A stretch of 35,346 nucleotides of DNA from Puniceicoccaceae bacterium (GTDB taxonomy: Bacteria > Verrucomicrobiota > Verrucomicrobiia > Opitutales > Opitutaceae): assembly GCA_007695295.1 (NCBI GenBank), contig REEB01000123.1, positions 1 to 35,346 of the forward strand. Direction: 5' to 3'. This document shows positions 5,355-34,557 of the stretch, one piece after another. The notes beneath the pieces are model-generated. The model saw only the letters and a list, made by a program, of their open reading frames with translations, made no database searches and was not told the origin of the DNA. The stretch's first letter is position 1. Each line of letters opens with the position of its first letter. Position numbers and translations under genes: made by a program.

Positions 5355-6134
5355 ATGAAAACCAAACTCTTCCTTCCTATCCTGCTTGGGCTGGCCGTTT
5401 CCGCCGCCGCGCTGAACGCCCAAACCCTGAACTACACCCAGGGCCATGCCGACCTCACATTCATTTACGACGACGACGCCGATGCCTGGTCCACCACCCT
5501 GCGCGCCCGCAGCTCGAATCCTCCCGCGGTCATCAATGGCCTCGTCCAAGGTTCGGCCGAAGCGCCCGGTGACCGGGTCGACTACGCCTTCGACACCCTC
5601 AACGTTTTTGTCCCCGCAGCCGCCACCGTCAGCCGTCCCGCCGGCGCGGAGTGGGATTTCACCGGCGTGGCCGCCGGCGAGGATCTTTTCCTGCTCCCCG
5701 CCACCGCGGCCGAGGCCATCAACTTCGGCTCCCCCTATTTCGGCATCCGCCCGGACATTGGCGCGGGCACGCTCTTCAACGACCAGTTCGTGCTCTGGGT
5801 GACGCAGGTGGACGGACCGGGCGAGGTCTCGGTCTGGAGCCGGATCAGCATTCCCGGGGCCGCTCCCTCGGTCCAGTATGCGACCGCCACCAACCAGCTC
5901 AGCGCGCTCCAGTCCTCCACCGGCCACCAGCACATGAACTGGGGCTTTTCCGCCGCGGGCGACTATGCCGTCACCTTCGCCTTCGCCGGTCTTTTGCCCG
6001 ATGGTGAAACCCTCACCTCGCTCGGCACCACCACCGTGAACTTCACCGTCATTCCCGAGCCGGCAACGGTCGCCCTTCTCGCCGGTCTTGGCGTCGCCGG
6101 GATCGCGTTGCTCCTGCGCCGCCGCCGCGGCTGA
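5355..6134 (+). CDS. PEP-CTERM sorting domain protein, unknown function
   Basis: A 259-residue secreted protein. It has an N-terminal signal peptide (MKTKLFLPILLGLAVSAAA, cleavage near LNAQ) and a C-terminal PEP-CTERM tripartite tail: VIPEPATVALLAGLG, a hydrophobic helix, then RRRRG. Such tails are recognised by exosortase-type enzymes and are common in exopolysaccharide-producing Gram-negatives and Verrucomicrobiota. The body (about residues 25-225) is rich in Ala, Thr and Asp and looks beta-rich; it begins YTQGHADLTFIYDDDADAW, and related verrucomicrobial proteins often contain a similar opening. No catalytic motif is visible. The gene stands alone, with no Shine-Dalgarno but with a strong terminator downstream. 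No exosortase gene is in the window. Confidence 0.85.
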   Translation: MKTKLFLPILLGLAVSAAALNAQTLNYTQGHADLTFIYDDDADAWSTTLRARSSNPPAVINGLVQGSAEAPGDRVDYAFDTLNVFVPAAATVSRPAGAEWDFTGVAAGEDLFLLPATAAEAINFGSPYFGIRPDIGAGTLFNDQFVLWVTQVDGPGEVSVWSRISIPGAAPSVQYATATNQLSALQSSTGHQHMNWGFSAAGDYAVTFAFAGLLPDGETLTSLGTTTVNFTVIPEPATVALLAGLGVAGIALLLRRRRG

Positions 6135-6162
6135 GGATCAGCCCGTTTCGTTTTCCTCCTGC

Positions 6163-6198
6163 CAGGCGGCTTCCCCCGGGAAGCCGCCTGTTTCTTTT
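6163..6198 (+). terminator. Rho-independent terminator of the PEP-CTERM gene
   Basis: CAGGCGGCTTCCC at 6163-6175 is an exact inverted match of GGGAAGCCGCCTG at 6178-6190, with only two bases between, so the innermost pairs must open to form the loop. TTTCTTTT follows at 6191-6198. It starts 29 bases after the stop codon. Confidence 0.85.
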
Positions 6199-6388
6199 CG
6201 CCTGCAGCAAACGGTTTGGAAACCGGCGGCCAACCTGCGCCCCACCCTCCCCGGCACCTCCCAACGACCATCGGCCCGTCGGCGGAAAAGAATCGGCAAC
6301 GTTCGCGGGGCTGGCTGCTCCCGTCACGGGGTCGTTTGCCAGTGGATTTTCTGATAAACCCCGATTTGAACATTTCCGACTTGATTCC

Positions 6389-6400
6389 CGAATCGATTCG
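6389..6400. promoter_or_regulatory. 12-base perfect palindrome, candidate operator
   Basis: CGAATCGATTCG is perfectly self-complementary and sits in the AT-rich, promoter-like part of the leader, about 200 bases before the first operon gene. A dimeric repressor could bind such a site, but only one copy is seen and no regulator gene is nearby. Confidence 0.25.
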
Positions 6401-6496
6401 TTTGGGGTTTAATGCCAGTCAGCCACTGCCGCGACGGTTTCAGGGCCGCCCCTCCGGCCTCGACTCTCTCCGGTTCCCTTCGCTCAGTCCCCTGGC

Positions 6497-6549
6497 AACA
6501 AACCACTGCTGGAGGCGGTCCGCACCGCCTCCAAGGAAGTTTGTTTTTT
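6497..6549 (+). terminator. Terminator-like two-part hairpin (possible attenuator)
   Basis: GGAGGCGGT (6511-6519) and ACCGCCTCC (6524-6532) form a 9-bp stem with a 4-base loop. Outside it AACAAAC (6497-6503) pairs with GTTTGTT (6539-6545), whose 3' side merges into a run of six T. The shape fits an intrinsic terminator. It has no upstream gene of its own and lies 52 bases before the first gene of the operon, so it would act as a conditional stop. Confidence 0.5.
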
Positions 6550-6601
6550 CGCCGCCCCATGGCCCGCATCCACTGAACCTCACCACTCCCGCTTTCACTC
6601 C

Positions 6602-8632
6602 ATGACCCCGCGAGCCCTGCTCATTGGTTTTGTTTTCGCCTCCCTGCTGGCGGGGTTCACCTACTTCAACGACTTCGTCCTCAAGCAGACCTTCCTCATC
6701 GGCACCCAAGTGCCGATCATTGTCTACGGCCTGCTCATCGTCTTCATCGTCACGATCAACCCGCTCCTGCGGCGGTTCGGCGAGAACGTCGCGCTCAGGG
6801 GGCGGGAGTTGGCGGTGATCCTCGGCATCACCACGGTGGTCTGCGTCATCCCGGGTTCGGGGCTCCTGCGGTATTTCATCATTTCGCTGATCATGCCGCA
6901 CTACGAGGCGCAGACGCAGGCCGGGGGCATCGGGGAGGAGCTGATCGGGCACATTCCCACGCGGATGCTCGCGGATCCCACCGCCCACCCGGACGCCCTG
7001 CCGGGCTACCTGCAGGGGCTCGGCGTGGGCGAGCAGGGGATGCAGTGGTCGCAGGTCCCCTGGGAAGCCTGGCTGCCCACTCTTTTGCTCTGGCTGCCAT
7101 TGCTGATGGTCTTCTGGATCGGGTTGATCGCGCTCGCGCTGGTCTTCCACACCCAGTGGTCCAAACACGAGCACCTGCCCTACCCGATCGCCCGCATCGC
7201 CAATGAGATGCTGCCGACCCATGGTGAGAAGCGCCACTCCATCTACAGCAACCGCTGGTTCTGGATTCCCTTCGCCATCGTGCTGGCGATCCACTTCAAC
7301 AACTTTCTCGTCAGCCACTACCCGCAGCTCATCGCGATCAAGCTCGGGATGGACCTGAATCCCGTCATGAATCCCCTCGACTGGCGTTTCCGGGGGCCGG
7401 CGTCGATGTGGAGCACGCTTAATTTCACCATCTATTTCAGTGCGATCGCGATCGCCTTTTTCCTGCCCCGGCAGATCTCCCTCTCCATCGGGCTGGCGCC
7501 ATTCTGCTACGGGCTGGTCGCGGGCACGCTCGGGCTCTACGGCATCAACATGGCCGGCGGCGGCGCCTATGCCCCCCGCAATTTGTTCAGCCTCGGCGCC
7601 TTCCTGGGCATTTTCCTCATGGTGGTCTATACCGGGCGTTATTTTTACCTCCAAGTCACCAAGCGGGCGCTCGGCATGGGAAAACCGGGGGAGGTGCCGG
7701 CCGAAGCGGTCTGGGGAGCGCGTATTTTTGTCCTCTGTTTTCTCCTCAGTGTCATCTGGTTCTCCGCCGCGGGCCTATCCTGGCCGATCACGTTCCTGGT
7801 TCTGGGGCTGATCCTGGTGACCTATATTGTCCTGAGCAGGATTTTCGCTGAGACCGGCATGTTTATCATCCAGCCCGTGCACAGCGCACCCGCCATGCTG
7901 TTGGTTTTTTTCGGCGCCCAGACGGTCGGGCCGGACGTGATGATGATTGTGGGCCTGCTCTGGGTCGTTTTCATGGCCGACCCCCGTGAGGCGCTCATGC
8001 CGTACGTGGTCAACGCCTTCAAACTCCTCGAGCACCGCAACCTCAGTCCGGCCCGGTTCGCACCCTGGGCCGTGGCCGTCCTCCTGCTCGGGCTCCTCAT
8101 CGCCGTGCCGGCGACGCTCTACTGGCAATACGAAGGGGGCTCCCGCAATGTCCAGCCGATCAGCGTGGTCATCGCCATGAGCAAGATTTTTCCCGAGGCC
8201 ATTCAGGTCCACCAGCGTCTTGATGCCCAGGGAGCTCTCGAGAGTTCGTTGCAAGCCTCCGGCTGGGAGGCGCTCCGGCAGATGCGGCCCCACGGCACCG
8301 GGTTGGTCGCCTTCGGGCTCGGGCTCGCCGCCGTCATCGGATTCAGTCTGCTGCGGCTGCGCATTCCCGCCTGGCCGCTGCATCCGGTCATCTTCGCCAT
8401 CTGGGCCGCCTGGGGCACGGCCGTTTTCTCGATTTCTTTTCTCATCGGCTGGTTTCTCAAGGGCATGGTCTCCAAATACGGGGGTGAAAAAGCGGTCAAC
8501 CACGTCAAACCCGCCATGGTCGGCCTCGTGGCCGGCGAGTTCATGGGCGCCATCCTCCCGGTGCTGATCAACTGGGGTTACTACTGGTTCACCGGCGAAA
8601 ACCCGCCGCATTTTATCGTGCTTCCGTCCTGA
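6602..8632 (+). CDS. DUF6785/DUF6784 polytopic membrane protein (OPT-like)
   Basis: A 676-residue integral membrane protein with about 13-14 hydrophobic helices spread from residue 5 to the end. The N-terminal two thirds resembles DUF6785. The C-terminal part carries the DUF6784 pattern, with PAWPLHPV followed by FLKGMVSKYGG and a final glycine-rich helix. Both are placed near oligopeptide-transporter (OPT)-like proteins, so transport of a small peptide or similar solute across the inner membrane is a reasonable but untested inference. It is the first gene of the operon, with the next ATG only three bases after its stop. A second OPT-like protein is encoded at 16971-18983, so the operon carries two large carriers of related style. 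There is no Shine-Dalgarno; the ATG at 6602 opens directly into the first helix. Confidence 0.75.
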   Translation: MTPRALLIGFVFASLLAGFTYFNDFVLKQTFLIGTQVPIIVYGLLIVFIVTINPLLRRFGENVALRGRELAVILGITTVVCVIPGSGLLRYFIISLIMPHYEAQTQAGGIGEELIGHIPTRMLADPTAHPDALPGYLQGLGVGEQGMQWSQVPWEAWLPTLLLWLPLLMVFWIGLIALALVFHTQWSKHEHLPYPIARIANEMLPTHGEKRHSIYSNRWFWIPFAIVLAIHFNNFLVSHYPQLIAIKLGMDLNPVMNPLDWRFRGPASMWSTLNFTIYFSAIAIAFFLPRQISLSIGLAPFCYGLVAGTLGLYGINMAGGGAYAPRNLFSLGAFLGIFLMVVYTGRYFYLQVTKRALGMGKPGEVPAEAVWGARIFVLCFLLSVIWFSAAGLSWPITFLVLGLILVTYIVLSRIFAETGMFIIQPVHSAPAMLLVFFGAQTVGPDVMMIVGLLWVVFMADPREALMPYVVNAFKLLEHRNLSPARFAPWAVAVLLLGLLIAVPATLYWQYEGGSRNVQPISVVIAMSKIFPEAIQVHQRLDAQGALESSLQASGWEALRQMRPHGTGLVAFGLGLAAVIGFSLLRLRIPAWPLHPVIFAIWAAWGTAVFSISFLIGWFLKGMVSKYGGEKAVNHVKPAMVGLVAGEFMGAILPVLINWGYYWFTGENPPHFIVLPS

Positions 8633-25568: not shown

Positions 25569-26170
25569 GGCTGAAAACCGACTCCCAAGGTCCGCAGTCT
25601 CCGGAGGGTCGATTCCATCGGAAGACCGATGATGTTCGTCAATGATCCCTCGTAATGATCCACAATCGCGGCTCCGTTTTCCTGGATGGCATAGCCGCCG
25701 GCTTTGTCGAGTGGGTTGATGGTATTCAGGTAGCCGGTAATGGCCTCGGGGTCAAGGGGCTTGAAAACCACCCGGCTGCGCTCGACTTCCACCTCGGGCG
25801 CCTCCATCGCCGGTCCGCCCAGTGCCACCGCCGTCGAAACCCAGTGCGGCCGGCCGGCCAGCGCCGCCAGCATCCGCACGGCCTCCTCCCGGTCGGCGGG
25901 TTTGTTGAAGATTCGTCCGTCGAGGTGCACGGTGGTGTCCGCCGCCAGCACCACCGCCCCCGGGTGCCACTCCCTGACCCGGGCGGCCTTGCGGCGGGCG
26001 TTCTCAATTACCATCGCCTCCGGTCCCCCGGGTGCGCTCTCCAACTCCTCCACCTCCGGCACCACGACACGAAACCGCAGCCCAGCTTCCTCCAGGAGCT
26101 GGCGGCGGCGCGGAGAACCGGAAGCGAGGATCAGCTCAGTTTTCAAGCTCACCGAGCAGGCGGCGCACAT
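25565..26170 (-). CDS. Maf-family nucleoside triphosphate pyrophosphatase
   Basis: A 201-residue cytoplasmic enzyme that removes pyrophosphate from non-canonical or dTTP/UTP nucleotides. The signature LILASGSPRRRQLLEEAGL is at the start, VVLAADTTVHLDG carries the catalytic acidic residues, NKPADREEAVRML follows, and DKAGGYAIQENGA and GSLTNIIGLPM close it, all as in Maf/YhdE proteins. The ATG at 26170 lies 35 bases inside the TolC-like gene. An in-frame GTG at 26152 would start S-L-K-T-E-L-I-L, nearer the usual Maf N-terminus, so the true start may be there. It sits between the TolC-like and TonB-like genes with overlaps at both ends. Confidence 0.93.
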   Translation of the reverse strand: MCAACSVSLKTELILASGSPRRRQLLEEAGLRFRVVVPEVEELESAPGGPEAMVIENARRKAARVREWHPGAVVLAADTTVHLDGRIFNKPADREEAVRMLAALAGRPHWVSTAVALGGPAMEAPEVEVERSRVVFKPLDPEAITGYLNTINPLDKAGGYAIQENGAAIVDHYEGSLTNIIGLPMESTLRRLRTLGVGFQP

Positions 26171-27491
26171 CCCCGTGCACGCGGGCGAGCTGGAGCCGGC
26201 CGAGCCGGTACAAAAAGACCGCTTCGACCAAGTTGTCTTCGGCCCGGGCGAGGTTGTTTTGCGCTTCGATCACTTCGCGGTTGTCGGCCACACCCTGCTC
26301 GAAGCGGATCCGCGCCAGCCGCAGCTCCTCATCCGCCAGGGAACGGTTTTTCTCCGCCACTTCAATCTGGGCCAACCTTGAACGCACATCCTGCCGGGCG
26401 AAGGTCAGCTCCGAGGCAATCTGCTGCTCCAAGTCCCGCAGGCGCAACTCCGTGGTGCGCAGCCGCGATTCCGCCAGCCGTTGGTTCGAGCGGATCCGGA
26501 AGCCCTCGAAGATCGGTACCGAGGCCGTCACCCCCACCAGCCAGGCGTTGCGCTCGTCCCCGTCGAAGGCCCGTTCACTCACATAGCCGTATTCACCGAT
26601 CAAGTTCAGGCTGGGAAACCGCTCCCAGGCGGCCGCCCGGCGCTCGATCAGGTTGCGCTCCCGCTGCTCACGCTCGCGCTGATACTCCGCCCGGGCTTCC
26701 AGAATGCCGCCGAGGTCAGGCATCCGCTCCAAGTCGACGTCGGTGCGCCGCACCCGGGCCGGACGCAGGTCGAGCTCGACCCCGACATCGAGGTCGAGGA
26801 GGCGCTTGAGGGTGAGCGAGCTGTCCACCACCACTGTCTCCTGCTGCAGGCGGGCCTGCTCTTCGATCGCGAGCTGGGCCTCCGCGCGGGTGACGTCGAT
26901 CTGGGTGGCCACGCCGGCGTCGAGCTGATTGCGCGCGAGCTGCAGCAGGACTTCCGCCCGCTCGATGTTCGACTCAATAACGTCGAAACGGCTCACGTTG
27001 CGAAGGTGGGTGAAGTAAATCCGGCCAACTGCGGCGAGAATTTCCTGCACCGCCTGTTCGTAGTCCCGCTCGGCCACGCGCACACCCCGCCGGGCCGCCC
27101 GGTAGGTCGCGATGTTCACGGGGTCGATCAGGGAGATGGAGCCGACGATCTTGCCTTCGAAGCGGTTGATCGGCCGCACCCCGGCCGCGGGCTCATCAAA
27201 AGCATCCCCGCCCGCCCGCGTCAGCGGCTGACGGCTGCGAAACTGGCTCGCATTCAGGTCCACCCGTGGCAGCAGAAAGGAACGCTCCCGATCGGCCGCC
27301 GTCTCCGCCTGGGTCACCCCTTCGCGCCCGATGAGCAGATCGAGATTCAAGTCTTCGATGCGGTCGAAGAGTTCCTCGAGCCCGAGGTTTCTTCCGTCCG
27401 CGAGAGGATTCGCGGCCGCACTCCCCTGAATCGCGAAGCCGCCAAATACTGCAAACAGCAAGATGGACAACAGATGGCACCGTTTGGGCAT
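26136..27491 (-). CDS. TolC-family outer membrane efflux protein
   Basis: A 451-residue outer-membrane channel protein. The start at 27491 gives a signal peptide (MPKRCHLLSILLFAVFGGFA, cleavage near GSAAANP); the frame upstream lacks signal features. Two repeats of the outer-membrane-factor fold follow: long heptad-rich helices (YEQAVQEILAAVGRIYFTHL and RNQLDAGVATQIDVTRAEAQ in the first, RLRDLEQQIASELTFARQDV and RFEQGVADNREVIEAQNNLA in the second). Short beta strands include FPSLNLIGEYGY. TolC trimers form the exit duct for tripartite exporters. The gene is divergent from the MacA/MacB-like operon (161-base gap), so the two probably work together; it could also serve the RND pump, which lacks its own channel. 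Maf follows with overlap. Confidence 0.92.
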   Translation of the reverse strand: MPKRCHLLSILLFAVFGGFAIQGSAAANPLADGRNLGLEELFDRIEDLNLDLLIGREGVTQAETAADRERSFLLPRVDLNASQFRSRQPLTRAGGDAFDEPAAGVRPINRFEGKIVGSISLIDPVNIATYRAARRGVRVAERDYEQAVQEILAAVGRIYFTHLRNVSRFDVIESNIERAEVLLQLARNQLDAGVATQIDVTRAEAQLAIEEQARLQQETVVVDSSLTLKRLLDLDVGVELDLRPARVRRTDVDLERMPDLGGILEARAEYQREREQRERNLIERRAAAWERFPSLNLIGEYGYVSERAFDGDERNAWLVGVTASVPIFEGFRIRSNQRLAESRLRTTELRLRDLEQQIASELTFARQDVRSRLAQIEVAEKNRSLADEELRLARIRFEQGVADNREVIEAQNNLARAEDNLVEAVFLYRLGRLQLARVHGDVRRLLGELEN

Positions 27492-27618
27492 GGCGGGACA
27501 TTGAGCAGGCCGTCGCCCGGAATGCAAACCCAACCCCGACTCTGTCCGCGCTTGCGGCTTCCCCCGGCCCCGTAACCGCAGGCCGAACCCGGGCGTCTCG
27601 TCTTCGCTAGTACCCATC

Positions 27619-27652
27619 TTGAACTTAAACCGCACTGCATTAACCTAACTTC
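27619..27652 (+). promoter_or_regulatory. Possible promoter of the MacAB-like operon (leaderless)
   Basis: TTGAAC (27619-27624) and TAACCT (27641-27646) are separated by 16 bases. A transcript starting the usual 6-8 bases after the second box would begin at or beside the ATG at 27653. No Shine-Dalgarno precedes that ATG, which would suit a leaderless message. Both boxes match the sigma-70 consensus only partly. Confidence 0.3.
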
Positions 27653-28738
27653 ATGGTCCGTGGACGCCCCCGCCTTTCCCTGCGCTTTTCCATCGCCGCC
27701 GCCCTCCTCGGAGGATGGTTGCTCTTCCCTGGCTGCGGCAACGATGCCCCCACGGGCGCTTCCGGCGGTGCCAACCGCGTCGTTGAAGTCACGGTGCGGG
27801 ACATCTCCGAAACCGTTGAACTGACCGGCGAGGTTGTCCCGGCGATCTACTCCGAGATCAAATCCGAGATCAGCGGGCGGATCGCCCAAGTCCATGCCGA
27901 GCCCGGTGTTCTTGTCGCAGCCGGCGATCTTCTCGTCGAGCTCGACCGCACTCAGCTCGATACCGAGGTGCGCGAGGCCGAACGCCAAGTCGAGGCCGCC
28001 CGCCTCAACATGGAGAAAGCCCTGCGCGATTATGAGCGCACCCGCGAGCTCTTCCAACGCGAGCTCGTGCCCCAGCGCGAATACCTTGACGCCCAGGTCG
28101 CCCGCGAACTCGCCGCCAATAGCTTCGAAATCCAGCAGGCCCGCCTCGAGTCCTCCAAAGAGCGTCTCGCCCAGTCCGTCATCCGCGCCCCCCACGCCGG
28201 GCTCGTCCTCAACCACAACCTCCGTGCCGGGCAGGTCGTCACCGGAGCCACTTCCGTTTCCCAGGGCACCGTGCTCATGGAGGTGGCGGATATGAATCTT
28301 CTCTACGTCGAAACCCACATCAACGAGGTCGATATCACCCGGGTTGCCGTCGGCATGCCGGCGCGCGTCTCCTTCGACACCATTCGCGGAGCGATTTTCG
28401 AAGGTGCCATCGAAACCCTTTCCCCTTCCGCCATCCAGCGCGATCAGGTCCGCGTTTTCCCGACCCGGATTCGCTTTGAGTCCCACGACCCGCGCATCCG
28501 CCCCGGCATCAGCGCCAATGTCGTCATCCCGGTCAGCACCGCCGAAGGTGTGCCGGCCGTCATTATCTCGGCCGTCTTCACCGAGCGGGGGTCGCGGTTC
28601 GTCTTTGTCCGCGAGGGCGAGGGTTTCGCCCGCCGGCCGGTCGTCACCGGCATCAGTGACATGGAGTTCGTCGAAATCCGCGAGGGGCTCTCTCCCGGCG
28701 AGGCCATCTCCCTCACCCGTCCCGCCATCGTCAACTGA
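27653..28738 (+). CDS. MacA-like membrane fusion lipoprotein
   Basis: A 361-residue periplasmic adaptor. A basic N-terminus and hydrophobic stretch end in a lipobox-like LLFPGC (Cys at about 28), so it is probably a lipoprotein. The first lipoyl half (EIKSEISGRIAQVHAEPGVL) leads into a helical hairpin (about 95-165, rich in Glu, Arg and Ala). SVIRAPHAGLVLNHNLRAGQ is the second lipoyl half. Barrel strands follow (VGMPARVSFDTIRGAIFEG) and the protein ends with a membrane-proximal domain (GEGFARRPVVTGISD, IREGLSPGEAISLT). With the ATPase and two permeases immediately downstream it makes a MacAB-like exporter. The ATPase gene starts five bases after its stop. Confidence 0.9.
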   Translation: MVRGRPRLSLRFSIAAALLGGWLLFPGCGNDAPTGASGGANRVVEVTVRDISETVELTGEVVPAIYSEIKSEISGRIAQVHAEPGVLVAAGDLLVELDRTQLDTEVREAERQVEAARLNMEKALRDYERTRELFQRELVPQREYLDAQVARELAANSFEIQQARLESSKERLAQSVIRAPHAGLVLNHNLRAGQVVTGATSVSQGTVLMEVADMNLLYVETHINEVDITRVAVGMPARVSFDTIRGAIFEGAIETLSPSAIQRDQVRVFPTRIRFESHDPRIRPGISANVVIPVSTAEGVPAVIISAVFTERGSRFVFVREGEGFARRPVVTGISDMEFVEIREGLSPGEAISLTRPAIVN

Positions 28739-28743
28739 CCGCG

Positions 28744-29466
28744 ATGGCCAACCATCCCCCCTCCGCCTCGGCTCCGCTCATCGAGCTGGAAGACGTCACC
28801 CGGACCTACGCCATGGGCGACCATGTGGTGCGCGCCCTCGATGGCGTCAGCCTCACCATCCACGAGGGCGAGTTCATCGCCATCGTCGGCCCCTCGGGTT
28901 CGGGCAAATCCACCCTCATGCACCTGCTTGGTTTCATGGATGAGCCCAGCGGCGGCGTCATGCGCTTCGAGGGCGAGGATGTCTCCCGAATCGGCTCCGG
29001 CCGCCGCGCCGCCTACCGCTCCGAAAAAATCGGCTTCGTTTTCCAGGCCTTCAATCTCCTGCCCCGGCTCAACGTCCTCGACAACGTCCTCCTTCCGCTC
29101 AGCTACCACCGCGGCACGATCGACAAATCCCGCCGCCACGCCGAGCAAGCCCTCGAGCGGGTCGGTCTTTCCGGCCGCGCCGGTCATCGCCCCGGCCAGC
29201 TCTCCGGCGGTGAACGCCAGCGCGTCGCCATCGCCCGCGCCCTCATCAACCAGCCCCGCCTCATCCTCGCCGACGAGCCCACCGGCAACCTCGACAGCCG
29301 CAATGTCGAGCGCATTCTCGGACTCTTCGACCAGCTCCACCAAGAGGGCCAGACCATCATCCTCGTCACCCACGACGCCGGCGTCGCCGCCCACGCCCGC
29401 ACCCAGGTCCACATGCTCGACGGCCGTATCCAGGATCCGGCTAGCCTCGAAACCGCCGCCCGCTGA
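28744..29466 (+). CDS. ABC transporter ATP-binding protein (MacB/LolD type)
   Basis: A 240-residue ATPase with Walker [10 protein letters not shown] (49-57), Q-loop FQAFNLLPRL, signature [15 protein letters not shown], Walker B ILADEPTGNLDSRN and H-loop VTHDAGVAAHA. The LSGGERQR and DEPTGNLDS forms are those of MacB/LolD/HrtA-type ATPases; the two ATPases of the 6.6-19.8 kb operon instead have SGGQQQR and DEPTANLD. In MacB of Gram-negative model bacteria the ATPase and permease are one chain; here they are separate. The permease gene starts two bases after its stop. Confidence 0.95.
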   Translation: MANHPPSASAPLIELEDVTRTYAMGDHVVRALDGVSLTIHEGEFIAIVGPSGSGKSTLMHLLGFMDEPSGGVMRFEGEDVSRIGSGRRAAYRSEKIGFVFQAFNLLPRLNVLDNVLLPLSYHRGTIDKSRRHAEQALERVGLSGRAGHRPGQLSGGERQRVAIARALINQPRLILADEPTGNLDSRNVERILGLFDQLHQEGQTIILVTHDAGVAAHARTQVHMLDGRIQDPASLETAAR

Positions 29467-29468
29467 CC

Positions 29469-30689
29469 ATGGTCACCCCCAGCCTCGCCCACGGGTTCAA
29501 GGAAATCTGGGCCCACAAATTCCGCTCCGCCCTCACCATGAGCGGCATCGTTCTCGGCGTCTGCGCCCTCGTCGGCATGCTCGGCGTCATCGAGGGCCTC
29601 ATCCAAAACATGAAGGCCTTCACCGACACCCGCGGCGGTTGGGAGAAATTCTCCGTCGTCGATGAGACGGTGCCCGAAGAGCAGCGTGAGATCCGCTTCC
29701 TCTCGCCCGGCCGCACCTACCGCGACGTGGAGGCCATCCGCCAAACCGCCCCCCTCGTCACCCACGTAGCCCCGCGCATGAATCTCTGGTGGGCCCACGC
29801 CCAGTACGGCAACCGCCGCGAATGGGGCCGTCTCTTCGGCGTCACCCCCGAGCAACAGGATGTCGCCCGCTACGAGGTCAGCGAGGGCCGCTTCATCGGC
29901 GATCTCGACAGCGAATACTTCCATTCCGTCTGTGTGATCGGCTCCGACATCGCCAATGCTCTCTTCCCCGGGCGGTCCGGGATCGGCGAACGCATCCAAC
30001 TCCGCGGCCAGCTCTTCACCGTGGTGGGCGTTCTGCGCCACTACGAGGCCATGCAGGGCGGCGAAAACACCCTCCGCTGGCGCAACCGCAGCGTCTTTAT
30101 CCCCATCGGCACCGCCATCAAGCGCTTCGCCGGGCACGACCGGCTCGACCAGCTCGACCTCCAGGTCGCCCGCCTCGACGATCTTCCCGCCGGTATGGAA
30201 CAGGTCGAAAATATCATCCTCGCCACCCACCGCGGCATCCTCGATTTCCGGGTCGTCAACCAGATCGAGGAACTCCAGGCCATCGCCGACACCTACCGGC
30301 GGATGCGCATCGGGCTCGGCAGCGTGGCCGCGGTTTCCCTGCTCGTGGGCGGTCTCGGCATCACCAGCATCATGCTCGCCTCAGTCAACGAGCGGATCCG
30401 GGAGGTCGGCATCCGCCGCGCCGTCGGCGCCCGCGGCGGCGACATTTTTCTCCAATTCCTCTCCGAGGCTCTGCTCCTGAGCGTGGTCGGCGGAATCCTC
30501 GGTGTCGCCGCCGGCGTCGGTCTCATTCAAGTGCTGACTCCGCTCCTGCCGGAGACGCCGCCGGTCCTGCTGCCGAAGGCCATGCTGCTCGGCCTGGTTT
30601 TCAGCGCCGGCCTCGGCTTTCTCGCCGGCATCTACCCTGCGCTGCGCGCCTCCCGGCTCGATCCGATGGAGGCCCTCCGCTACGAATAA
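29469..30689 (+). CDS. MacB-type ABC permease, first paralog
   Basis: A 406-residue permease with TM1 near 20-42 (SALTMSGIVLGVCALVGMLG). A periplasmic MacB core domain follows (about 45-280), including FLSPGRTYRDVEAIRQTAP and EGRFIGDLDSEYFHSVCVIG. Three FtsX helices come next, with NERIREVGIRRAVGARGGDI between TM2 and TM3, and the typical ending YPALRASRLDPMEALRYE. It is the partner of the preceding ATPase and a clear paralog of the next gene: both have LSPGRT, EGRFIGDLD and THRGILDFR-type segments at matching positions. Two different permeases with one ATPase suggest a heterodimeric exporter. Confidence 0.93.
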   Translation: MVTPSLAHGFKEIWAHKFRSALTMSGIVLGVCALVGMLGVIEGLIQNMKAFTDTRGGWEKFSVVDETVPEEQREIRFLSPGRTYRDVEAIRQTAPLVTHVAPRMNLWWAHAQYGNRREWGRLFGVTPEQQDVARYEVSEGRFIGDLDSEYFHSVCVIGSDIANALFPGRSGIGERIQLRGQLFTVVGVLRHYEAMQGGENTLRWRNRSVFIPIGTAIKRFAGHDRLDQLDLQVARLDDLPAGMEQVENIILATHRGILDFRVVNQIEELQAIADTYRRMRIGLGSVAAVSLLVGGLGITSIMLASVNERIREVGIRRAVGARGGDIFLQFLSEALLLSVVGGILGVAAGVGLIQVLTPLLPETPPVLLPKAMLLGLVFSAGLGFLAGIYPALRASRLDPMEALRYE

Positions 30690-30704
30690 ACCTCCCCACC
30701 ACTG

Positions 30705-31940
30705 ATGCTTTTTCTTCAGGGTATTCTCAACGGGCTGCGCGAGATCCGCGCCAATCTTTTCCGCTCCCTCCTGACCCTCATCGGCATCGTTTGCGGGGTC
30801 GCTTCCCTCGTCGCCATGATGGCCGTGGTCCAGGGCATGCTGGCGGATTGGCGCGCCGTCCTCACCGAGCGCGGAGGCATGGAGCGCATGGAGGTCCTGC
30901 ATGAAGATCCACCCGATGACCAGACCCACCTCGCGGGCCTCTCGCCGGGCCGCACCAGCCGCGACGCCTTCGCCCTTCTGCACAGCGCCCACCTCATCCG
31001 CCATGTCTCGCCCGAGGTCCATGTCGACCGCTTCGGCACCCCCGTCCGTGCCGCCGGCCGGCGCGGCTGGTTCCGCGTCCGCGGCGTCACCCCCGCCATC
31101 CTCGAGGTCGACCGCTTCGAGGTCGCCGAGGGCCGCTTCATCGGCGATCTCGACAACGACGAGGCCCACGCGGTCGCCGTCATCGGCAGCGGAGTCGTCC
31201 GCCAGATGTTCCGACCCGGGCAACCGGTCCTCGGCGCCACCATCGAGATCCGCGGCGTGCCGTTCCGGGTGGTCGGCGTCCTCCAGCACTACGAGTTCAT
31301 GCAGGGCAACCGCAACGCCCTCGAGTGGAAGAACCGTTTCATCTTTATCCCCATGCGGACGGCCCAGCTCCGCTACCGGGGCAATGACAGTCTCGATGGC
31401 CTCAATCTCCAAGTTGCGGGCGTCGAATATATGGAGCGCGCCATCGAGCAGGTTGAAAACACCCTCCTCGTCACCCACCGAGGCGTCCTCGATTTCCGGA
31501 TACAGACGATGGAGGAAGAACTCGCCGAGCTGCGCGCGGCCGAGCGCCGTTTCCAGGTTTCCCTCGGCGGAGTGGCCGGGATTTCCCTTTTCATCGGCGG
31601 TATTGTCATCGCCAATGTCATGCTCGCCTCGATCAAGGAGCGCGTCCGCGAGATCGGGGTGCGCAAGGCCCTCGGTGCCCGCCGCCGCGATATTTTCATC
31701 CAGTTCCTCGCCGAGTCCTTCACCATCAGCGTGCTCGGCGGCATCCTCGGGCTCGCCGCAAGTTTCGCTTTTCTGCACTTTCTGGAGCAGCTCCTCACCG
31801 AGCAGCCGCCGCCCGTCATCCTGCCGGAGATCCTCCTGCTCGGCTTCGCCGCCAGCGTCGTCACCGGGATTCTCGCCGGCATCTACCCGGCCCTCCAAGC
31901 CGCCCGCCTCAGCCCCATCCAAGCCCTGCAGTACGAATAA
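30705..31940 (+). CDS. MacB-type ABC permease, second paralog
   Basis: A 411-residue permease, paralogous along its length to the preceding gene. TM1 is near 20-42 (LLTLIGIVCGVASLVAMMAV). The periplasmic core contains LSPGRTSRDAFALLHSAH, EGRFIGDLDNDEAHAVAVIG and VTHRGVLDF. The coupling segment is IKERVREIGVRKALGARRRD, and the end is YPALQAARLSPIQALQYE. No second ATPase accompanies it, so both permeases probably share the ATPase at 28744-29466. The gap before it is 15 bases. Its stop is followed by the repeat cluster, and no clear terminator is visible. Confidence 0.93.
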   Translation: MLFLQGILNGLREIRANLFRSLLTLIGIVCGVASLVAMMAVVQGMLADWRAVLTERGGMERMEVLHEDPPDDQTHLAGLSPGRTSRDAFALLHSAHLIRHVSPEVHVDRFGTPVRAAGRRGWFRVRGVTPAILEVDRFEVAEGRFIGDLDNDEAHAVAVIGSGVVRQMFRPGQPVLGATIEIRGVPFRVVGVLQHYEFMQGNRNALEWKNRFIFIPMRTAQLRYRGNDSLDGLNLQVAGVEYMERAIEQVENTLLVTHRGVLDFRIQTMEEELAELRAAERRFQVSLGGVAGISLFIGGIVIANVMLASIKERVREIGVRKALGARRRDIFIQFLAESFTISVLGGILGLAASFAFLHFLEQLLTEQPPPVILPEILLLGFAASVVTGILAGIYPALQAARLSPIQALQYE

Positions 31941-32007: not shown

Positions 32008-32247
32008 CCTGAACTCAACAGCACCTCCAAATGCGTACGTGAGACTTTGGCGTCCCGCGGCCCATCATAATCGTAATCCTGCTCGTAATCGTAATCGTAA
32101 TCGACGGATTGAGTGCACTTCCGCCAGCCGCATCGATAAAGAATCATCCGGGTACGGCGCAGGACCTGCGGAACAACGGTGGGATTTCGATTATGATTAC
32201 GATTACGAGAAGGATTACGGGCTTGGACAGGGTTTCCCACCGCTGAT
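32008..32247. repeat. Fold-back repeat copy C (right end truncated)
   Basis: The left end is CCTGAACTCAACAG (32008-32021). The left inner arm has three near-consecutive CGTAAT hexamers (TCGTAATCGTAATCGTAATC); the right inner arm is GATTATGATTACGATTACGAG. Between them are the shared words GAGTGCACTTCCGCCAGCC and GCATCGATAAAG. It ends GGGCTTGGACAGGGTTTCCCACCGCTGA, where the expected right terminus (GTTGAACTCAGG) breaks off, and a small inverted palindrome pair follows at once. It codes for nothing. Confidence 0.75.
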
Positions 32248-32257
32248 CCAAACCAGA

Positions 32258-32316
32258 GTAGGGGGAGCATCTTGCTCCCCCCAAAAAAACCCGGGAGCAA
32301 GATGCTCCCGCTACTT
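32258..32316. repeat. Inverted pair of the GGGAGCAA palindrome
   Basis: GTAGGGGGAGCATCTTGC onward (32258-32282) is the reverse complement, with a few changes, of GGGAGCAAGATGCTCCCGC and TAC (32293-32314); the two are separated by a short A-rich spacer. Each arm is itself a palindrome, so the pair can form one long hairpin or two small ones. It lies exactly between fold-back copies C and D. Confidence 0.75.
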
Positions 32317-32317
32317 T

Positions 32318-32595
32318 CCTGCGTTCAAGAGCACCTCCTTTTTCGAACGTCAGTCGTCGATTTCGAATGGCGAGATCGCGGGATGAGGTGCCCCGCCGCC
32401 CATCGTAATCGTAATCCTGCTCCTAATCCTAATCGACGGATCGAGTGTACTTCCGCCAGCCGCATCGGAGAAGCATCACCGGGGTACTGCGACGGACCTT
32501 CGGAGGAACGGGTAGTGGAGTTACGATTTCGATTAAGAATATGATTAGGAGAAGGATTACGGGCGCGAACAGGGTTTCCCACTGTTGAACTCAGG
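32318..32595. repeat. Fold-back MITE-like repeat, copy D
   Basis: A 278-base copy with both termini: left CCTGCGTTCAAGAG (32318-32331) and right CTGTTGAACTCAGG (32582-32595), which are inverted matches at 12 of 14 positions. Left inner arm: TCGTAATCGTAATCCTGC, TCCTAATCCTAATCG. Right inner arm: TACGATTTCGATTAAGAA, ATGATTAGGAGAAGG. The right arm has drifted more than in copies A-C. As in copy A, the GGGAGCAA palindrome tail GCTACTTT abuts its left end. The following 170 bases, up to the oxidoreductase start, hold no recognisable gene. Confidence 0.8.
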
Positions 32596-32765
32596 AAGGC
32601 CAGTGGCAGCCCAACGAGTGGAAGCGGCTTCGACTCGACTGAGCCCGTCGCAGGCCAGCCGCTGCAAAGTCCCAAGATGGCGCTGCCACGCCCGCTCTCC
32701 GAAGTCGCTGCGTTTTCGCCTTGCGCCCGGCCCCCTCCTGCCAACCCATCGCCCTGCACCGCTCC

Positions 32766-34442
32766 ATGTCCACCGCCGCATCATCCCGTGATTGCCTCGT
32801 CGTCGGAGGCGGACTCGCCGGCTCGCTCCTCGCCAACCGTCTGCTCGACCGCGGCTGGACCGTCGATCTGGCAGCCGACCCCTCCACCATGCCCGCCTCA
32901 AGGGTCGGAGCCGGTCTCATCACCCCCGTCACCGGACGCAAGTTCGGGCTCACCCCGGACTGGGGGCCACTCTCGAAAACGGCGCTGGAATGGTACCGCG
33001 CTTTCGAAAAGCAGTTTCAGGCTCCGCTCCTTGCCCCCCTCGAAGTCTTCCGCTGGTTCGCCAACGCCGAAGAAGCCACCGCCGCCCGCCGCCGGCGCCG
33101 CCGGCTCCAGCCCGCCGGCTGGGCCCGGCCGATCACCACCGCCGAGCAGGCCGCGTGGGAACCTTTTTTCCATCCCCCCCATGCCGGACTGGTTCTCACC
33201 GGTGCCTGGCGGCTCGACACCGCCGGCCTGCTCGACCACCTTCACCGCCGCCTCGCCGCCGCCGGGCGTTTCATCCCGCAGTCACTGCCGCCTCCAGCCA
33301 ACGAAGCCGGCGACGGGTATGCCGCCCACGGCATCCGCTACCGAAAGGTCGTCTGGTGCGAAGGAGCCGGCGTGCTTCGTCACCGGGGAGCGGATACGCT
33401 GCCCTGGAAACCTTCCCGCGGCGAACTGCTGGAAGTGGAAATCCCCGGCCTCCGGTTGGATGCGGTCATCCGCCGCGGTCACAGTCTCATCCCCCTCGGG
33501 GACCATCGCTTCCTTGCCGGCGCCACGTACGACTGGGATCACCCCGACCAAACCCCCACCCCGGAAGCCCGCGCGGAGCTGGAATCCTTCCTCCACAACC
33601 TGCTCCGGGTGCCGTCGACGATCACCGGTCACCGTGCCGGAGTTCGGGTCGGCACACCCGACAACCGGCCCGTGGCCGGCCCCCATCCCCTCCATCCCGG
33701 GCACTGGATCTGCAATGGCTTCGGCTCCAAAGGCTCGCTCCTCATCCCGTGGACCGTCGAAGCCCTCGCCCACCACTTGGTCGACGGAACCCCCCTGCCG
33801 CCCGAACTGCTCCCACAGCGTTTCTCCCGGCCGCCACCGCCGGAACCCCCGCCCAACCGCCGCCCCACCACCCTCGCACGCCAAGCCGTATGCGAAATCC
33901 TGCGACCCGGAGACGCCGCCCTCGATGCCACCGCCGGCAATGGCCACGACACCGCTTTCCTCGCCCGCACCGTCGGGCCGCGGGGCCGGGTCGCCGCCCT
34001 CGACATCCAGCCCGCCGCGATTTCCTCGACCCGCCGCCGTCTCACCGAGGAGAAGCTCCTCGACCGCGTCACGCTTCTCCAAGCCGACCACGGCGATCTC
34101 GCGGAGCTCGTCCTTTTCCCGCCCGGCGTCCGGCCCACGGCGATCATGTTCAACCTCGGCTACCTCCCCGGCGGCGACCGCCGCCTCATCACCCGGCCCG
34201 CCTCCACCCTGCGCGCCCTTGAAGCCGCCCTCACCCTCCTCGCCCCCGGCGGCATCCTCAGCGTGGTCGCTTATCCCGGCCACCCGGGCGGCGCCGGCGA
34301 ACTCGCCGCCCTCCAAACCTGGCTCACCACCCTCCCCCCGCCGTGGCAGGTCCGCCGCCTCGGCGACCACCCCCCGCCCGACTCCCCCCACCCGCGCGCT
34401 TTCGCCGTGTTGCAGCCCCCAGATCCCCGCAGCAGCCCTTAG
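32766..34442 (+). CDS. FAD oxidoreductase fused to MnmM/YtqB-type methyltransferase
   Basis: A 558-residue two-domain protein. Residues 1-350 are a DAO-type FAD oxidoreductase: GGGLAGSLLANRLLDRGW (14-31) is the dinucleotide-binding loop, then ASRVGAGLITPVTGRKFGL, TGHRAGVRVGTPDNRPVAGP and NGFGSKGSLLIPW near the flavin. Residues about 370-550 are a class I SAM methyltransferase of the rRNA_methylase/YtqB type: LDATAGNGHDTAFLA (about 386-400), VAALDIQPAAI, FNLGYLPGGD (about 462-471) and YPGHPGG (503-509). YtqB is known as MnmM, which methylates the 5-aminomethyl group of wobble uridine in tRNA. The pairing mirrors MnmC, whose FAD domain makes the aminomethyl group and whose other domain methylates it, with the order reversed and an unrelated methyltransferase branch. 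The ATG at 32766 was chosen by domain start. The tRNA role is strong inference. Confidence 0.85.
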   Translation: MSTAASSRDCLVVGGGLAGSLLANRLLDRGWTVDLAADPSTMPASRVGAGLITPVTGRKFGLTPDWGPLSKTALEWYRAFEKQFQAPLLAPLEVFRWFANAEEATAARRRRRRLQPAGWARPITTAEQAAWEPFFHPPHAGLVLTGAWRLDTAGLLDHLHRRLAAAGRFIPQSLPPPANEAGDGYAAHGIRYRKVVWCEGAGVLRHRGADTLPWKPSRGELLEVEIPGLRLDAVIRRGHSLIPLGDHRFLAGATYDWDHPDQTPTPEARAELESFLHNLLRVPSTITGHRAGVRVGTPDNRPVAGPHPLHPGHWICNGFGSKGSLLIPWTVEALAHHLVDGTPLPPELLPQRFSRPPPPEPPPNRRPTTLARQAVCEILRPGDAALDATAGNGHDTAFLARTVGPRGRVAALDIQPAAISSTRRRLTEEKLLDRVTLLQADHGDLAELVLFPPGVRPTAIMFNLGYLPGGDRRLITRPASTLRALEAALTLLAPGGILSVVAYPGHPGGAGELAALQTWLTTLPPPWQVRRLGDHPPPDSPHPRAFAVLQPPDPRSSP

Positions 34443-34527: not shown

Positions 34528-34557
34528 GGGAGCAAGTTGCTCCCGCTACTTTTCCCA
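34528..34557. repeat. GGGAGCAA palindromic repeat, copy with GTT centre
   Basis: GGGAGCAAGTTGCTCCC (34528-34544), then GCTACTTTTCC. It shares arms and tail with the copies at 462 and 32293 but has a different centre that keeps the palindrome. No fold-back element is attached, so the tail belongs to this repeat and not to the larger element. Confidence 0.7.

Follow-up and report, generated by a model that had tools for sequence, protein, structure and literature searches.

The window, a 35,346-nt stretch of DNA from a Puniceicoccaceae bacterium (family Opitutaceae of the phylum Verrucomicrobiota in GTDB), carries on its plus strand a gene (32766-34442) in which a FAD oxidoreductase and an MnmM methyltransferase are fused into a single protein of 558 aa plus stop. 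The open reading frame begins with ATG and ends with TAG (34440-34442), and its translation contains no internal stops. The same frame stays open 5' of the ATG, for 599 aa altogether, with a TTG at 32721; the ATG is nonetheless adequate as the start, because the FAD-binding GxGxxG motif falls at residues 14-19 of the protein that begins there. Full-length fused homologues with 31-39% identity are present in five other genomes, which excludes an assembly chimera as the source of the fusion. The region 5' of the gene is occupied by an efflux cluster (26136-31940), consisting of an outer membrane efflux protein on the minus strand followed on the plus strand (27653-31940) by HlyD, an ABC ATPase and two MacB-like permeases. 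No tRNA-modification genes were found among the neighbouring ORFs scanned, and the remaining neighbours had no Pfam match. The DNA between the efflux cluster and the fusion gene is rich in repeats. Positions 32070-32588 hold two copies of a ~170-nt intergenic repeat unit, 80-86% alike and rich in inverted TAATCG-type arrays, and the palindromic repeat GGGAGCAAGATGCTCCC (462-478, 32263-32309 and 34528-34544; 5 strand matches versus 0 expected) flanks the fusion gene and also occurs near the window start.

The sequence-only reading of this DNA had described a FAD oxidoreductase followed by an MnmM/YtqB-type methyltransferase, and this order is borne out by Pfam matches to DAO (PF01266, residues 9-335, E=1.3e-31) and to PF06962 (residues 409-525, E=4e-35). 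An AlphaFold2 model of the protein, built from an alignment of the window and locus proteins, has a mean pLDDT of 91.5 with both domains included; the two enzymes are joined by a flexible, low-confidence linker at residues 356-364 (33831-33857, pLDDT <50).

The C-terminal domain matches the NCBIfam MnmM equivalog model NF053511 over residues 367-524 (33864-34337) with 167.3 bits, above the cut-off of 135, and in the structural model its fold continues to residue ~550. Structure comparison of the AlphaFold2 model matched this fold to solved MnmM structures, including the Bacillus subtilis MnmM-tRNA complex 8h0s (34% identity over 187 alignment columns, TMt 0.88). Mutation of K11, D34, N101, Y104, K110, Y141 or H144 almost abolishes the activity of B. 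subtilis MnmM (PMC9976899), and the corresponding positions of the fusion are R372, D395, N463, Y466, R472, Y503 and H506, so that two of the seven are conservatively replaced, K11 by R372 and K110 by R472. Asp395 (33948-33950), the equivalent of the D34 that contacts U33, is conserved in 18/18 sequences. The N463-L-G-Y466 segment (34152-34163) provides the counterparts of the proposed general base N101 and of Y104, which stacks on U34, and Y503-P-G-H506 (34272-34283) those of Y141 and H144, which take part in U34 recognition. With the equivalog model passed and the catalytic and tRNA-contact residues kept, the earlier identification of this half as MnmM holds: as judged from sequence, it is a member of MnmM, with methylation of nm5s2U34 as its predicted activity, and the fusion is the sole PF06962 protein in its genome. 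Two sister fusions, at locus L076 (4163-6235, minus strand) and locus L006 (1477-3219, minus strand), have lost key MnmM residues. The MnmM half of the fusion in genome G013 reads SLGR in place of NLGY, and that in genome G029 reads NLGH and has the later tyrosine without GH after it, which suggests a degenerate or altered methyltransferase in both.

The N-terminal half (residues 9-335, 32790-33770, with a fold reaching residue ~355) belongs to the DAO superfamily, scoring 110.9 bits against PF01266 where the gathering cut-off is 27.9. Its model has the DAO/glycine-oxidase fold, with a VIA Z of 35.4 to 4ysh (rmsd 3.0, 346 aligned), 32.8 to E. coli MnmC 3awi (rmsd 3.2, 340 aligned) and >30 to many DAO structures. 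Among solved structures glycine oxidases come closest (Z 33-35), with MnmC 1-3 Z units below them, a comparison that does not tell ThiO and MnmC apart; MnmC1 is structurally a relative of glycine oxidase (PMC3648344). Family models place the domain no more closely. The ThiO model TIGR02352, its best FAD match in NCBIfam, gave 87.4 bits against a cut-off of 250.8, and the MnmC1 model TIGR03197 gave 70.5 bits against an equivalog-domain cut-off of 174.2, with other members of the clade to which this half belongs (hereafter the FAD clade) at 65-93 bits and likewise below the cut-off.

The dinucleotide-binding GxGxxG motif reads GGGLAG (residues 14-19, 32805-32822), and its A18 is present in 59/61 of the FAD clade and 11/11 MnmC1 sequences, versus isoleucine in 4/4 ThiO sequences. 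Arg294 (33645-33647), which aligns with the arginine that binds the substrate carboxylate in glycine oxidase, is invariant in the FAD clade, MnmC1 and ThiO. A GSKG motif at residues 320-323 (33723-33734) has at position 322 a lysine in 56/61 of the FAD clade (lysine or arginine in 59/61); the equivalent residue is lysine or arginine in 11/11 MnmC1 sequences (arginine in ten, giving GSRG) and asparagine in all four ThiO sequences. GS[KR]G, A18 and an aromatic residue at 255 are thus common to the FAD clade and MnmC1, unlike ThiO, and these features of the sequence favour MnmC1 over ThiO. In trees made with FastTree (61 FAD-clade sequences) and IQ-TREE (13 sequences), with supports read from unrooted splits, the FAD clade was monophyletic (0.988; 99.9/100), as was MnmC1 (0.998; 87/95), and the FAD clade stood apart from both MnmC1 and ThiO. 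FastTree joined the FAD clade with MnmC1 and PDB 22zt (0.874), whereas IQ-TREE did not. The 22zt_A chain, solved as a 'predicted D-amino acid dehydrogenase', carries a GLGSKG motif and matches a FAD-clade profile (E=2e-27), and its grouping with the clade is weak. By the tests made, score and clade placement, the FAD half is not classed as a member of MnmC1, and the FAD clade is a family of oxidases to which neither Pfam nor NCBIfam gives a specific name.

The genome that contains the fusion also has an MnmG match (734 bits). The MnmC2 domain (PF05430) was found neither in the fusion protein nor elsewhere in this genome, which therefore has no classical MnmC; a complete one would have spoken against the sequence-only reading. 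No MnmL above the family cut-off was found there either, the best TIGR01212 match reaching 25 bits where 180 are required.

The two domains occur fused, as neighbouring genes and as separate genes. In the first sample, full-length fusions were present in six more genomes of the same family and in one of the same order, and the FAD and MnmM proteins were encoded by neighbouring genes in five genomes. A wider scan of one genome per species (84,980 species), with a query from seven FAD sequences, detected >550 relatives of the FAD domain. Among the best 80 of these, fusions were seen in Opitutaceae, Pelagicoccus, an acidobacterium (Mor1), a gammaproteobacterial MAG and a Mariprofundus MAG, and neighbouring genes in Mariprofundaceae, Methylobacter relatives, a Pirellulales MAG and a Kapaibacterium MAG. 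In 31/31 pairs of adjacent genes MnmM follows the FAD gene on the same strand, just as its domain does in the fusion. Parsimony on the tree requires at least six fusion/fission changes, with fusions on several branches.

The FAD clade, MnmM, MnmC2 and MnmL were tallied across 289 Verrucomicrobiota genomes, and this genome survey, of the kind that the sequence-only reading had called for, found the FAD clade in every one with MnmM. The clade was present in 46/46 genomes with MnmM versus 16/243 without (Fisher 4e-40), in 22/22 versus 8/131 when counted by genus (3e-20), and in 13/13 versus 1/9 within genus g72 (3e-5), where the two genes lie apart; these p-values are overstated, because the tests ignore shared ancestry. 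The g72 genomes divide into 13 with both genes, one with the FAD gene alone and eight with neither, so the co-occurrence repeats at the level of genome, of genus and within a genus. In 42 of the 46 genomes with MnmM no other known oxidase was detected; in the other four MnmL accompanies the FAD clade. MnmL is present in 9/62 of all FAD-clade genomes of the phylum.

Genomes with the FAD clade and no MnmM tend to carry the other methyltransferase. MnmC2 was found in 10/16 such Verrucomicrobiota genomes, as Tgt-MnmC2 fusions in the family of the window and as separate genes in family f38. Viewed from the methyltransferase, the 79 genomes with MnmC2 include 63 with MnmL, mostly as a fused MnmL-MnmC2, and 11 with the FAD clade (five of them also with MnmL), besides four with classical MnmC and six without MnmL, FAD clade or classical MnmC. 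Outside the Verrucomicrobiota set, 44 genomes have the FAD clade without a neighbouring MnmM; 28 of these carry an orphan MnmC2 and a further two encode MnmM at another locus. A search extending 4 kb from the FAD genes of Bacteroidota yielded no MnmC2; in the 28 cases it is located elsewhere in the genome. Neither methyltransferase was detected in 6/62 FAD-clade genomes of the Verrucomicrobiota set or in 14 outside it, many of them Chitinophaga. Some of these are incomplete MAGs; the Chitinophaga pattern is consistent. Six Chitinophaga loci have the FAD clade with MnmM and MnmC2 undetected in the genome, and in most of them the FAD gene adjoins a class II tRNA synthetase. The conserved neighbours of orphan FAD genes in Chitinophaga and Opitutaceae (class II tRNA synthetase, alpha-2-macroglobulin, FKBP and ROK proteins) include no third methyltransferase, and in Chitinophaga the pathway may stop at nm5U or rely on a different methyltransferase. 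The earlier statement that this FAD family performs the first step wherever it occurs unfused is thus backed by its pairing with MnmM and MnmC2, but as a universal claim it was too strong, given the genomes with neither partner.

Further fusions of enzymes in this pathway were seen in the phylum. PF05430 matches of ~705 aa in the family of the window were considered as classical MnmC and rejected, the sequences being Tgt-MnmC2 fusions. At Opitutaceae locus L046 (3716-5830, minus strand), and likewise at four further loci of the family, the Tgt half, a queuosine tRNA-guanine transglycosylase (442 bits in the L046 type), is followed by a C-terminal MnmC2-like domain, so that two enzymes of tRNA position 34 are joined in one chain. 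The radical-SAM enzyme MnmL is fused to MnmC2 at L183 (640-2409, minus strand) and in ~60 genomes of families f32, f33, f37, f40 and others, an arrangement that prevails through much of the phylum.

The fusion is very probably a functional analogue of the bifunctional MnmC, assembled from other parts in the reverse order. MnmG, found in the genome, and MnmE, whose presence is presumed, would make cmnm5(s2)U34. To judge from its association, fold and motifs, the FAD domain would then act on the modified base and oxidise its N-CH2-COO- unit; flavin N5 would probably accept the hydride given up by the alpha-carbon of the glycine moiety. Hydrolysis of the resulting imine would yield nm5(s2)U34 and glyoxylate, and the MnmM domain would subsequently methylate the amine with SAM to give mnm5(s2)U34. 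Assignment of the FAD clade as the cmnm5U34-to-nm5U34 oxidase, with methylation as the following step, is based on its co-occurrence with MnmM, the gene order, the recurrent fusions and the pairing with orphan MnmC2; encoded alone, it probably performs the same step, the partner being an MnmM encoded separately or an orphan MnmC2.

A different reading of the same fold is that the FAD half is an oxidase of small-molecule amines, ThiO glycine oxidase or some other, whose fusion to MnmM does not reflect a common pathway. Glycine oxidases are its closest solved folds and ThiO its best NCBIfam match, yet the score of 87 bits is far below the cut-off of 251, which no gene in 57 relatives reaches, ThiO falls outside the strongly supported FAD clade, and the ThiO RNG motif is missing from all 61 sequences of that clade. 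True ThiO moreover sits in a thi cluster, whereas no thiamine genes were found among the scanned neighbours of the FAD genes, the efflux cluster of the window included. Such a chance union would also leave the perfect association with MnmM without an explanation, and we regard it as most improbable. It is likewise quite unlikely that the FAD domain acts on U34 in another way, on a different substituent or as an mnm5U demethylase, with the fusion regulating the modification rather than completing it. The DAO superfamily does include N-demethylating sarcosine and dimethylglycine enzymes, and the four MnmM genomes with both MnmL and the FAD clade would be in keeping with such a role; in the 42 genomes where no other known oxidase was detected, however, the first step would be left without an enzyme. 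MnmC2, with which the clade is paired as well, depends on the same substrate as MnmM, and the MnmC1-type GS[KR]G and conserved carboxylate arginine fit cmnm5.

A third alternative concerns descent rather than function, namely that the FAD clade is a diverged MnmC1 and the fusion a domain shuffle of classical MnmC. The FastTree grouping with MnmC1 and 22zt, the three shared sequence features and a Neisseria record in which a bona fide MnmC1 (417 bits) lies near an MnmM-like sequence all point in this direction, but the FAD clade and MnmC1 are each monophyletic and are not joined by IQ-TREE, and the score of the FAD half against TIGR03197 is well short of the cut-off. We hold this origin to be a serious possibility, if a somewhat doubtful one. 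The fusion is real, and under the preferred reading, that of an MnmC analogue, its predicted function as a replacement for MnmC is convincing.

Classical MnmC (E. coli MnmC2-MnmC1; NF002480, TIGR03197, PF05430) likewise unites a SAM methyltransferase and a DAO-fold FAD domain in one polypeptide, and the fusion is predicted to share with it the conversion of cmnm5U34 via nm5U34 to mnm5U34, as well as GS[KR]G and the carboxylate arginine in the FAD domain. It differs in its reversed domain order, in having MnmM instead of MnmC2, and in a FAD domain that forms a separate clade below the MnmC1 cut-off. MnmM/YtqB proteins (NF053511) of B. subtilis, S. aureus and plants (PMC9976899) have the key residues and fold of the C-terminal half, but those described in the literature consulted are single-domain, and that study mentions neither a fusion nor a FAD partner. 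ThiO (TIGR02352) has the fold of the FAD half, binds FAD as it does and probably shares its chemistry, in which a glycine unit is oxidised; the substrate of ThiO is a small molecule, and it differs in clade and in motifs. Stand-alone MnmC1, annotated in Piscirickettsia and present in Neisseria with MnmM nearby, is, like the FAD half, an MnmC1-type oxidase without an intact fused MnmC2, but it groups with true MnmC1 and is not fused to MnmM. In the Neisseria gonorrhoeae record L305 the MnmM-like sequence (1928-2314) and MnmC1 (5500-7167) are ~3 kb apart, and a pairing of the known MnmC1 with MnmM may exist in this organism as well. MnmL/YtqA (TIGR01212), which occurs in MnmL-MnmC2 fusions in the phylum of the window, is a radical SAM enzyme, in contrast to the flavin enzyme of the fusion. 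Jaroch et al. are said to have proposed in 2024 that MnmL/YtqA supplies nm5U34 to MnmM in Gram-positive bacteria. The abstract of that work reportedly mentions fusion proteins, so the FAD-MnmM fusion may already be noted there.

The last step of the pathway, methylation of nm5 to mnm5, has been demonstrated for B. subtilis MnmM, which by itself brings mnm5s2U back in an E. coli strain without mnmC (PMC9976899). The same 2023 study sought a FAD-methyltransferase fusion or operon among genes common to three Gram-positive species and found none, and it called the MnmC(o)-like enzyme unknown both in MnmM organisms and in organisms with orphan mnmC(m). A passage of PMC12548931 cites MnmL for the oxidase-equivalent step that supplies nm5U34. 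On balance we think it likely that the unnamed FAD family, apart from MnmC1, is the source of nm5U34 in Verrucomicrobiota, Bacteroidota, Zetaproteobacteria, Methylobacter relatives and others, that it pairs freely with either of two unrelated methyltransferases (with MnmM through a fusion or an operon, with MnmC2 as an orphan), and that it is this MnmC(o)-like enzyme, at least in Gram-negative lineages. It tracks MnmM perfectly in one phylum, accompanies orphan MnmC2 elsewhere, and fits the step that had been called missing. Hundreds of proteins for which the family libraries offer nothing more specific than 'FAD-dependent oxidoreductase' would thereby gain a testable function. The distribution points to more than one origin of the MnmC architecture, with different building blocks, and the pathway looks modular, combining a flavin or radical-SAM oxidase with either MnmC2 or MnmM.
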